Below, piece by piece: positions 14,719 to 20,043 of a DNA stretch of 64,000 nucleotides. The number at the start of each line of letters is the position of its first letter. Position 1 is the stretch's first letter. Source of the stretch: Terriglobales bacterium (GTDB lineage: Bacteria > Acidobacteriota > Terriglobia > Terriglobales > Acidobacteriaceae); contig DASSIZ010000013.1 of NCBI GenBank assembly GCA_035691485.1, forward strand, positions 1 through 64,000, written 5' to 3'. The translations under genes and the position numbers were made by a program. The notes beneath the pieces were generated by a model. It did no database searches, was not told where the DNA came from, and saw only the letters and a program-made list of their open reading frames with translations.

Positions 14719-16143
14719 ATGGCTAAGAACTCGAAAGTCGAAAGTCGGAACCCTCAATTGTTCCGCAAGCTGCCCTCCCTGGACGAGCTGCTGCGGACGC
14801 CGGAAATGACGCGCATGGTGGAGCGGGAAGGCCGCGCGGCCACGCTCGACGCGGCGCGGACCGTGCTCGAGCGGCTGCGCGCGGAAATCAGCTCCGGAAG
14901 CATGAACGAGCCAGGAATCGAGGTGGCGATCGGCGGGCTTCCGGACGCGGTGCAACGCGAGCTGCGTCGAACCCTGGAACCGTCCCTGCGGCCGGTGATC
15001 AATGCCACCGGGGTCGTGTTGCACACGAACCTGGGTCGGGCGCCGCTGGGCCGGGCTGCGCTGGAGCACGCGCGCCAGGTTGCGGAGTTATATTCCAACC
15101 TCGAATTCGAAGTCGATTCCGGCGAGCGCGGCAAGCGCGACGTCCACGTGGACCGGCTGTTCGCGCGTTTGTTCAGCGAGTATTCCGACGATGTCGCCAC
15201 CGTGGTGGTGAACAACAACGCGGCCGCGGTGCTGCTGGCGCTGAATACGCTGGCCGAAGGCGGGGAGGTGGTGGTGTCGCGCGGAGAGCTGGTGGAGATC
15301 GGAGGCTCCTTCCGCATTCCTGACGTGATGACGAAGTCGGGCGCGGCGCTGCGCGAGGTTGGCACCACCAACCGCACCCGGCTGGCCGATTACGAGCGCG
15401 CCATCACCGAGCGCACGCGGCTGATCCTGCGCGTGCACCGGTCGAACTTTCAGATTGTCGGCTTCACCGAACAGCCGCCGCTCGAAGAACTGGTGTTGCT
15501 GGCACACCAGCGCGGTTTACCCATCGTCGAAGACCTGGGCAGCGGCGCCCTTCTGGATTTGAGGACCATCGGCATCGGCAGCGAGCCGGTAGTCGGTGAC
15601 AGCCTGCGCGCGGGCGTGGACGTGGTCACCTACAGCGGCGACAAGCTGCTGGGAGGACCGCAAGCAGGTATGCTCAGCGGGCGGCGCGAGATGATCACTC
15701 GCATTCGCTCCAACCCTGTGTTCCGCGCGCTTCGCGTGGACAAGCTCATCTATGCCGCGCTCGAGGCAACGCTGCTTTCCTACGTGCGCCAGGACCACGA
15801 CGCCATACCCGCGCTGCGCATGATGCGCCTGCCGGCGGAGGAGATTGGCCGGCGCGCCGAGACGATAGCGAAGAATCTGCACCTTCCCATTCGCGGAGAG
15901 GTGATCGCCGGCGAGTCGGTGATCGGCGGCGGTGCGGCGCCGGGCGCCACGCTGTCGACGAAGTTGCTGGCGCTAACCCGCGAAGGCTGGAGCGCGGACG
16001 AATTCGCCGCGCGGCTGAGAGCGAATGACCCGGCGATCATTGCGCGAGTTGAGGAAGGACGGGTGTTGCTGGATTTCCGGACAATTTTTCCCGAGCAGGA
16101 CCAGGAGATCGCCCGCGCCCTGCAGGGGATCGGCGCCAGCTAG
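14719..16143 (+). CDS. selA: L-seryl-tRNA(Sec) selenium transferase
   Basis: PLP enzyme that converts Ser-tRNA(Sec) to Sec-tRNA(Sec) using selenophosphate. The 474 residues include the N-terminal helical domain (LPSLDELLRTPEM), PVINATGVVLHTNLGRAPL, VVNNNAAAVLLAL, VHRSNFQIVGFTE and VEDLGSGAL, and the PLP-binding Lys309 in TYSGDKLLGGPQAG. These are the classic SelA motifs. selB, selD and tRNA-Sec are not in the window and must lie elsewhere. Less than 3 kb away (18360-18866) is a gene that needs this pathway. A TAATCT -10-like box lies 9 nt before the ATG. Confidence 0.95.
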   Translation: MAKNSKVESRNPQLFRKLPSLDELLRTPEMTRMVEREGRAATLDAARTVLERLRAEISSGSMNEPGIEVAIGGLPDAVQRELRRTLEPSLRPVINATGVVLHTNLGRAPLGRAALEHARQVAELYSNLEFEVDSGERGKRDVHVDRLFARLFSEYSDDVATVVVNNNAAAVLLALNTLAEGGEVVVSRGELVEIGGSFRIPDVMTKSGAALREVGTTNRTRLADYERAITERTRLILRVHRSNFQIVGFTEQPPLEELVLLAHQRGLPIVEDLGSGALLDLRTIGIGSEPVVGDSLRAGVDVVTYSGDKLLGGPQAGMLSGRREMITRIRSNPVFRALRVDKLIYAALEATLLSYVRQDHDAIPALRMMRLPAEEIGRRAETIAKNLHLPIRGEVIAGESVIGGGAAPGATLSTKLLALTREGWSADEFAARLRANDPAIIARVEEGRVLLDFRTIFPEQDQEIARALQGIGAS

Positions 16144-17463: not shown

Positions 17464-17560
17464 CAAACTGAGGAATTGCGGAATGGCAGAATCGAAAAAC
17501 AAAGCCGAATTGCCGTGAAAGATTCGGCAATTCGGCCATTCAACAATTCTGCAATCTGGT
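17464..17560. repeat. GAATTGC/GCAATTC-rich tract (family B, second copy)
   Basis: Alternating GGAATTGCGG, CCGAATTGCCG and CGGCAATTCGG motifs fill the spacer between the ferredoxin and ferritin-like genes; it resembles 8634-8750. The part around CCGAATTGCCGTGAAAGATTCGGCAATTCGG can form a hairpin. Confidence 0.5.
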
Positions 17561-18174
17561 TAGCTTCCAATGTAGAACGACGCATTCTTGCTGTAGGGCG
17601 CGTGTCCGGGTTCACCGCGGCGGAAGTGTCCGCTGGGCACCGACTTCTTGTCGCGTTCGAAAGCCAGCAACTCGATGAACCAGGCCTCGTGCTCGATTTC
17701 CTCGTTCAGGATGCGCGCGGCCATGTCGTAGGTGCGCGGGTCCTTGCCGAAGGTCATGTCGCAGACCTCGATCCAGCTGCGGATGGCGCAGCGCTCCGAT
17801 TCCAGCAGCAACTGCAGGATATTGGCCGCAGTGGGCGGATTGGGCAGCTTGGCCGCGGCGCAACCGGCCTGGTTGTGAAAGGCGGGCAGGTCGTTGGGCA
17901 GTTCGCCGCCCAGTTCATAAATGCGAGGAACGATCAGCTCCCAATGGGCGCGGTCTTCCAGGCGGGCGTCCTCGCAGATTTCCTTGTAATCTTCGTGTCC
18001 CGCCAGGTGCATGCGGAGAATTGTGTAGTAATAGTAGGTGCTGGCAAATTCGGCGGCGGCATTGGCGATCAGCATTTTGATCAGCTTCTCGACGTCCACG
18101 CCACGTTTGCGGATCACTTCCACTCCCACGCGCTGGGTAACGTCCCCCGGCTTCACAGTATCGGTTGGTGCCAT
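17560..18174 (-). CDS. Ferritin-like (Dps-like) iron-binding protein
   Basis: A 204-residue four-helix protein with diiron-type carboxylate motifs: [19 protein letters not shown] in helix [13 protein letters not shown] in helix [13 protein letters not shown] in helix C and [16 protein letters not shown] in helix D. This suits the ferritin-like superfamily, close to archaeal-type Dps-like proteins that store iron and consume H2O2. An AGGAGG 6 nt before the ATG at 18174 is one of the clearest Shine-Dalgarno sequences here. It is downstream of the selenoperoxiredoxin on the same strand and upstream of the ferredoxin, so a joint peroxide/iron defence role is plausible. Confidence 0.85.
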
Positions 18175-18359: not shown

Positions 18360-18866
18360 TTAAGAAATTGCCCTCGTTTTTGTCATCTCGCGCAGGACTT
18401 CGAACACGTCTTCGTTTTCCGGCACCTCGCCCAGCTCGTACAACTTGGAAAAACGGATGACTCCCTCTTTATCAATCAGGAACACGGCGCGCTCGCTGAT
18501 GCCCGGGATCGGACTACCCTCGCGCAGCACCCCATACCGTTGAGCGACCTCCCCGTGGGGCCAGAAGTCGCTCCCCAGCGGGTAGCTGAGCTTGCCCACT
18601 TCATACTTCTGCCAAGCGATATGACTGAAAACCGAATCAATGCTCATGCCCACGACCTGGGCATCAAAGCCGGCGAACTTATCGCGATCTGCCTCGTACG
18701 CCGACGTTTGCGCCGCTCAAGCCGGGGTGAAGTTCAACGGGTGAAAGGCGAGCACGATGTTCTTCTTTCCCCGGAACTCACCGAGTTTGAGGCGGTGCTT
18801 CTCTTCGCCGGTGCACGCCGGGACATCGAAATCGGGCGCGCGGGCCCCCACTTCAAGAGCTGCCAT
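18360..18866 (-). CDS. Selenocysteine-containing AhpE-type peroxiredoxin (UGA-decoded)
   Basis: Reduces peroxides. Read from ATG 18866 (GGAGAG just upstream), the frame is 168 codons with one in-frame TGA at 18719-18717, codon 50. Before it: the thioredoxin fold KNIVLAFHPLNFTPA; after it AAQTSAYEADRDKF and then, in the same frame, SYPLGSDFWPHGEVAQRYGV and AVFLIDKEGVIRF. These parts match the AhpE family, where the residue after FTxx is the peroxidatic Cys, so the UGA is exactly at the catalytic position and is most simply selenocysteine. No other Cys follows; Cys18 is the only remaining one. Without read-through only a 49-residue inactive fragment is made. selA lies nearby at 14719. Confidence 0.9.
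18671..18703 (-). promoter_or_regulatory. Candidate bacterial SECIS stem-loop after the UGA
   Basis: Starting 14 nt after the UGA, CGGCG pairs with CGCCG (5 bp), and inside it CGA pairs with TCG around an apical loop GGCAGA. The apical Gs are about 24-25 nt from the UGA, in the range seen for bSECIS elements bound by SelB. The stem is short and imperfect; an alternative hairpin CGGCG-CAAA-CGTCG lies directly after the UGA. The fold is by eye. Confidence 0.45.
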
Positions 18867-19119
18867 GAGCTCTCCTCTCTGGGATAATTCCTGAGTGAAC
18901 CGCAAACCTACGAATTTTAATTGCCTGCCGGAGGGCGGGCAAGTGCGGGAAAATTAAACAATCGTGAATTCGGTCAACTGGGGAATTCAGGTCAGCCTGG
19001 GCGGTACCCAACTTCACTAAACTGCTCCACAGAAAACATCCTGGCCTTGGGTAACGCGGGGAAGAAATCCCGGCATCTAGAGAGGTGTCCGGTCCCCGCC
19101 CAGCTAAGGAGGCTTCCCC

Positions 19120-20043
19120 ATGTTTGGACTCAAACGCTACAACTACAACACCTTCACCAGAGACCTCCTGATCAAAGCCGCCGTGAAAACGAAGTTCGGC
19201 AGCGGCCCGGAGCCTGGCGACCGCGCTCCCGGCTTCGAAGGCCGAACTCTCGATGGGGGGAAGTTCCGCCTCAGCGACTTTGAAGGCGAGAAGAACGTGG
19301 TGCTGACCTTCGGCTCCGCCACTTGCCCCTTTACCGCCGCTTCCATCGGCGGCTTGAACGATCTCTACGACGACTACGCGGACCGCGACGTGGAGTTCTT
19401 GTTCGTGTACGTGCGCGAAGCGCATCCCGGCGAGAAGCTGGGACGTCACCAAACCGGCGACGACAAACGCGCCGCCGCCGAGCAGTTCGCCACGCAAGAA
19501 AAGGTTGATATTCCAATCCTCGTGGACGAACTCAACGGCAAGATTCACCGCAAATATGGCTCGCTGCCGAATCCGACTTACATCATCGACAAGTCCGGCC
19601 GGGTGGCATTCCGCTCCCTGTGGACGCGCGCCAGCGTCCTGGAGGACGCACTCGACGAGCTGCTCAAACGACAGGAGGAACGCGACAGCGATCACGCCAT
19701 CGTGCGCGGCGGAGAGGACACCTCCATGCCCATCGCGTACGCTCTCTTCCACGCGCATCGCGCCCTGGACCGCGGCGGCGACAAGGCAATCGAGGACTTC
19801 CGGCGCGAGCTGGGCATGCCGGGACGCCTGGCGCACACGGCAAGCCGGGTGGCACAGCCGATCGCGCTGTACCCCGGACGCGCTTTTGCGGCAGCGCTGA
19901 TTGCCGGGGGCGTCATCGTCGGCGGGCTGCTCCTGGGACGCAAGTTGCGCTGGCAGCGCTACGGATCGCTGCGTAGTCCCTATCGCTACCAGGGAGTCCA
20001 GCCGCGAGAGACGACCGAAGGAGATTACGCGGTCGGCATTTGA
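19120..20043 (+). CDS. Deiodinase-like/redoxin protein with C-terminal membrane anchor
   Basis: 307 residues. Residues ~30-185 form a thioredoxin-fold redoxin: PGDRAPGFEGRTLDGG, then VVLTFGSATCPFTAAS with the active Cys69, EFLFVYVREAHPGEK and YIIDKSGRVAFRS. FGSxTCPF recalls iodothyronine deiodinases, where selenocysteine sits in the same FGSCTUPPF context; here it is a normal Cys codon. A helix AAALIAGGVIVGGLLLG near residue 265 is a probable membrane anchor, with a basic tail after it. AAGGAGG at 19106-19112 marks the start. It is divergent from the selenoperoxiredoxin, 253 nt apart. Confidence 0.8.
   Translation: MFGLKRYNYNTFTRDLLIKAAVKTKFGSGPEPGDRAPGFEGRTLDGGKFRLSDFEGEKNVVLTFGSATCPFTAASIGGLNDLYDDYADRDVEFLFVYVREAHPGEKLGRHQTGDDKRAAAEQFATQEKVDIPILVDELNGKIHRKYGSLPNPTYIIDKSGRVAFRSLWTRASVLEDALDELLKRQEERDSDHAIVRGGEDTSMPIAYALFHAHRALDRGGDKAIEDFRRELGMPGRLAHTASRVAQPIALYPGRAFAAALIAGGVIVGGLLLGRKLRWQRYGSLRSPYRYQGVQPRETTEGDYAVGI

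Follow-up and report, generated by a model that had tools for sequence, protein, structure and literature searches.

The closest described systems to the locus analysed here include AhpE, a one-Cys enzyme, and PrxU, which we take to be the enzyme of Eubacterium acidaminophilum. Peroxiredoxins with selenocysteine (Sec) have been recorded on several occasions: a 2006 survey counted 12 of them, and listed the Acidobacteria with 3 families and 4 selenoproteins (PMC1794560); 43 Sec peroxiredoxin genes were reported from the Sargasso Sea (PMC1088965) and 253 from the GOS set (PMC2398784); and 91 Sec peroxiredoxins in 78 organisms were reported in 2016 (PMC5029168). Sec peroxiredoxins of the TxxU kind also feature in reviews of 2022 and 2026 (PMC9312934, PMC13188914), and the deep-Sep paper lists 3 known selenoprotein genes for one acidobacterium (PMC12013277).

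The strings ‘AhpE’ and ‘Acidobacteri’ are absent from the main text of the 2026 review (PMC13188914), and five acidobacterial names are absent from the main text of the 2006 survey (PMC1794560). Among the papers listed that pair selenoprotein with AhpE, none was a selenoprotein survey, as judged by title, and a search for Koribacter together with selenocysteine returned no paper. It is possible that an AhpE-like Sec group has been detected before.

Here, we describe a peroxiredoxin gene interrupted by a single in-frame TGA in the window, by which we mean the whole 64 000 nt stretch of Terriglobales DNA that was analysed. We propose, with a probability of about 0.93, that it is a functional gene for an AhpE-like one-Sec peroxiredoxin, in which UGA codon 50 would be decoded as Sec, the selenolate would attack peroxide and the reductant would come from outside the protein.

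Results

The minus strand of the window holds, at 18866-18360, a single frame of 168 codons plus TAA, running from an ATG at 18866-18864 to the TAA at 18362-18360, and its sole internal stop is the TGA at codon 50 (Table 1). The frame is open on both sides of this TGA, which directly follows NFTPA; coordinates and context are those given by the original prediction. A list of ORFs under translation table 11 (at least 80 aa) contains just a 97-aa fragment of the gene, 18360-18653. The active-site motif of the read-through product is P43-LNF-T47-PA-U50, and a phmmer alignment with AhpE of M. tuberculosis put codon 50 on the peroxidatic Cys, where it had been predicted to fall. R126 is invariant in all 22 rows of aligned members. 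C18 and U50 are the only Cys or Sec residues of the window protein, with no Cys placed after the Sec as UxxC. Single-sequence structure prediction of the product was of low confidence (mean pLDDT 42.9).

Table 1. Features of the window around the predicted Sec peroxiredoxin gene
Feature	Position	Strand	Evidence or remarks
selA, L-seryl-tRNA(Sec) selenium transferase	14719..16143	+	TIGR00474 548 bits, cut-off 267.9
Dps-like ferritin-fold protein	17560..18174	-	Next gene, same strand as peroxiredoxin; NF040955 (archaeal-type DPS model) 284 bits, cut-off 250
Predicted Sec peroxiredoxin gene	18360..18866	-	Read-through translation; Pfam AhpC-TSA 6e-28 (97.7 bits, cut-off 26), Redoxin 3.5e-15
Predicted bacterial SECIS-type stem-loop	18669..18705	-	Arms 18705-18699 / 18675-18669; upper pairs 18697/18677, 18696/18678
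In-frame TGA, codon 50, at the peroxidatic residue of PxxxTxxU	18717..18719	-	Sequence; AhpE alignment; codon is TGA in 64 of the top 90 relatives
AGGAG, ribosome-binding-site-like	18872..18876	-	5 bases 5′ of the ATG, spotted by eye
Thioredoxin-fold protein, deiodinase-related, Cys69 at the catalytic place (FGSATCPF)	19120..20043	+	Divergent from peroxiredoxin

The description of the protein as ‘AhpE-type’ stands in part. Among peroxiredoxins of known structure, AhpE is the best match to the single sequence (92.8 bits, with BAS1 at 90.1; phmmer), whereas a 22-sequence profile ranks the 2-Cys peroxiredoxin BAS1 (117.4 bits) slightly above AhpE (110.0 bits). ‘AhpE-like’ is the safer label.

A search of 200 genomes of the same family found a match in each, and the codon was read in the best 90 rows (E down to 7.6e-45) and, beyond these, in G013, where it encodes Cys. 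Across these 90 rows, 64 have TGA at the aligned position, 15 a Cys codon (TGC/TGT) and 11 a Ser codon (AGC/AGT), and the 64 TGA loci represent 61 genomes and 35 of the 79 sampled genera (genera counted by hand). Rows marked ‘1 TAG’ or ‘1 TAA’ had suggested that other stop codons might occur at codon 50; neither is present at that codon in any of the 90. Outside the family 28 loci were examined, comprising 27 from a search of 396 genomes of the phylum (one of them a repeat of G050, and G013 belonging to the same family) and a Nitrospinae locus; 15 of these carry TGA and 13 carry Cys. When the G050 repeat is left out, there are 14 TGA loci across nine other families of the phylum. A search of genome contigs yielded three distant relatives, the nearest being the Nitrospinae record, a Cys form. 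The family and phylum searches also returned a second group of weaker matches (approximately 35-46% identity, mostly over residues 4-140), with one in-frame TGA in many genomes, for example G011:C25:49024-49425 and G242:C15:37325-37723.

When a tree was built from 88 rows after masking of the catalytic site (L094 and L099 were left out as incomplete loci), the Cys rows were scattered among the Sec rows, with 7 changes, at least 5 of which are forced by well-supported branches, and the Ser label arises in one change (support 100/99). The pattern fits repeated exchange between Sec and Cys, with no direction assigned.

The Ser clade consists of 11 sister proteins with Ser at the catalytic place and Glu or Asp replacing the motif Thr, typically as FYPLNWEPVS (loci L100-L102, L104, L105, L107, L108 and L110-L113). 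A Sec copy is also present in 9 of the 11 genomes. Wider stretches were read for 8 of the 11 (L143-L150), and in all 8 the Ser gene adjoins a long ORF on the same strand; the three such ORFs that were scanned have PA, Peptidase_M28 and TFR_dimer domains. The Ser clade is, thus described, a conserved peroxiredoxin without the catalytic residue beside a glutamate-carboxypeptidase-II-like enzyme.

The gene divergent from the peroxiredoxin encodes a product that matches the model NF038285 at 105 bits, under the cut-off of 250, as well as Pfam T4_deiodinase (54 bits) and AhpC-TSA (63.5 bits). A hydrophobic stretch was noted by eye at its C-terminus. The divergent pair recurs at 23 or more of the 90 loci, including the window (22 Sec forms and 1 Cys form; E up to 1e-20), a count that is a lower bound because many loci are short. 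The two start codons lie 135-307 bases apart, and the catalytic residue of the deiodinase-related partner is Cys in 23 of 23. Within the genus of the window, the congeners G109 and G136 gave no match to the deiodinase-related protein. A third congener, G055, has the Sec gene and a deiodinase-related match of 21 bits only; 242 bases lie between the end of its Sec gene and a contig end, which leaves room for an assembly gap. The Dps-like gene is found nearby in one other of the 90 loci (L030), where it lies on the other side and is divergent.

The repeated pairing with a deiodinase-related thioredoxin-fold protein could also be read as a sign that Sec is inserted into an enzyme whose main role is that of a thiol-disulfide or repair oxidoreductase, not a peroxidase, and the persistence of a related lineage that lacks both the motif Thr and a catalytic Cys or Sec points the same way. 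We regard such a role as unlikely, since the Sec forms keep the peroxidase motif (Thr or Ser at position 47 in 64 of 64, Pro at position 43 in 58 of 64), the Arg at position 126 does not vary among the aligned members and the window protein lacks a Cys in the UxxC arrangement.

The genome from which the window derives (3.84 Mb, 145 contigs, 98.5% complete) contains a tRNA-Sec (69 bits, gathering score 47) with anticodon TCA, called tRNA-SeC by ARAGORN, together with SelB (373.6 bits, cut-off 242) and SelD (361 bits, cut-off 125). The original prediction had held that a genome devoid of selB, selD and tRNA-Sec would mark the gene as a pseudogene; all three, and SelA, score over their cut-offs. 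It had also drawn attention to the nearby selA, and selA is indeed close by; it lies on the opposite strand and, therefore, shares no operon with the peroxiredoxin gene. SelD, encoded outside the window (L020; G000:C13:72551-73507), itself has one in-frame TGA, in the context AAG-U-ASK, which makes SelD a likely second selenoprotein of this genome.

The cut-offs were also applied to 14 control genomes, of which 5 passed for tRNA-Sec, 2 for SelB, 2 for SelD and 1 for SelA; hence, none of the first three is proof singly, and the selA cut-off is selective. SelA is over its cut-off in 59 of the 61 TGA-form genomes versus 58 of the 139 others (Fisher p = 3e-15, an optimistic value because the sequences are related). 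The two TGA-form genomes without selA over the cut-off, G120 and G184, have passing tRNA-Sec (63.1 and 64.9 bits) and SelB (380 and 377 bits), so that some or all of the genes for Sec decoding are present in each of the 61. The Cys-form genome G107 (69% complete) has SelB and is without a passing selA or tRNA-Sec.

These genes bear on the reading that UGA has been reassigned generally in this lineage to another amino acid. Cys inserted at TGA would also fill the active site, and nothing among the features examined here favours such a code change. It is made highly improbable by the presence of a TCA-anticodon tRNA-Sec alongside SelA, SelB and SelD, by the association of TGA forms with selA, and by the 90 rows read, in which the alternatives to TGA at this site are Cys and, in a single clade, Ser, and not Trp.

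Comparison of the window gene with that of G055, which keeps the TGA and is open on both sides of it, gave dN/dS values of 0.08 before the TGA and 0.09 after it, approximate figures because dS is close to 1 (1.2 and 0.95). Purifying selection is of similar strength before and after the TGA. The other two congeners, G109 and G136, are without a close match (best E 7.8e-19 and 3.1e-18); tRNA-Sec is over the cut-off in both, and a full SelB is present in G109. Frame-disrupted versions, the other sign of a pseudogene that had been named, were not seen in the genus. The earlier argument that a chance nonsense mutation would be unlikely to strike exactly this codon gains strength from the best family rows, in which the same codon is TGA in 64 of 90 and is followed by 110-121 sense codons. 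A pseudogene, in which the catalytic Cys codon would have mutated recently to a stop, would account for the truncated standard-code ORF and for the missing close match in G109 and G136, two of three congeners, and we reject it as extremely improbable in view of a TGA shared across genera of the family and with the 14 loci of nine other families, selection on both sides of the TGA and Sec machinery in the genome.

The window sequence directly downstream of the UGA is predicted to form a hairpin of -23.5 kcal/mol, with a z-score of -1.51 against dinucleotide shuffles, 12 of 200 of which fold as well. For the group, the 54 nt 3′ of codon 50 were compared with versions of the stretch in which synonymous codons had been drawn anew according to the codon usage of the gene concerned. 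The mean fold z was -1.62 for Sec forms (n=64), +0.04 for Cys forms (n=15) and -0.16 for Ser forms (n=11), and Sec differed from Cys with p = 6e-8, which is again optimistic for related sequences. Fold z was below -1 in 72% of Sec forms, and control stretches in the Sec genes had mean z values of -0.26 downstream and -0.32 upstream (n=63). By the same resampling the window gene gave a weak z of -0.88, with its own controls at -1.65 upstream and +1.03 downstream, and G055 was also weak (z -0.43; upstream control -1.17). For nine base pairs taken from folds of Sec members, the share of cells in which the pair forms is 81% in Sec forms, 49% in Cys forms and 59% in Ser forms, and in Sec forms the figure drops to 27-52% when the pairs are slid by 1-3 columns; having been picked on Sec-member folds, these pairs favour the Sec forms in the count, a lean that the resampling test does not have. 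RNAalifold returned no structure for an ungapped set of the 64 Sec sequences. The folding signal downstream of the UGA is clear at the level of the group, and weak and not significant for the window gene alone.

Discussion

Our data are consistent with a model in which UGA codon 50 would be translated as Sec by means of SelB and tRNA-Sec, aided by the predicted hairpin that follows it. The selenolate of residue 50, positioned by P43, T47 and R126, would then attack peroxide and become a selenenic acid. We infer Sec insertion, peroxidase activity and the reductant from comparative sequence evidence, and the Sec-based peroxidatic cycle in particular is what the conserved motif and the known chemistry of peroxiredoxins lead one to expect. 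Apart from the Sec site, no position has Cys in all 64 Sec members, and the most frequent additional Cys site is occupied in 34; because no second Cys is conserved across the group, the selenenic acid would most likely be reduced by an external thiol or a thioredoxin-fold partner. The reductant is thus probably a separate protein or a small thiol, and the divergent thioredoxin-fold protein is one candidate. As a tentative extension, rather doubtful at present, the Sec peroxiredoxin and the divergent deiodinase-related protein might act together as a peroxide defence of two parts, the latter, perhaps at the membrane, reducing the selenenic acid.

Standard-code gene calling cuts this enzyme to a piece, yet no fewer than 61 of the 200 family genomes sampled carry a TGA form, and such forms recur in nine other families of the phylum. 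The existence of Sec, Cys and Ser versions in related bacteria makes the benefit of selenium to a peroxiredoxin directly testable.

Among described selenoproteins, the thiol peroxidase Prx-SUH (NF045827) resembles the window protein as a peroxiredoxin-fold family listed among selenoproteins, but its motif is CxxU (PMC13188914) and the window protein reaches only 59.6 bits against a cut-off of 298. The TxxU family of Prx, which includes PrxU, shares membership of the AhpC/TSA family, the PxxxTxxU motif and Sec at the peroxidatic site (PMC13188914). No NCBIfam model claims the window protein; the best of them, that for PrxU (NF040737), gives 85.5 bits against a cut-off of 270, and the protein has 168 aa where the model has 233 positions. 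With AhpE of M. tuberculosis (Rv2238c/MT2298; PDB 5c04, 1xvw), the window protein has FHPL-FT and SDFWPHG in common, and the window group likewise is without a conserved resolving Cys and would rely on a single catalytic residue; the difference is that this residue is predicted to be Sec in the window protein, whereas it is Cys in AhpE. The original prediction had suggested a little-described form, which does not hold for Sec TxxU peroxiredoxins as a whole, established as they are, and may hold for the AhpE-like branch, which we judge to be new within the known Sec peroxiredoxins of the PxxxTxxU type.
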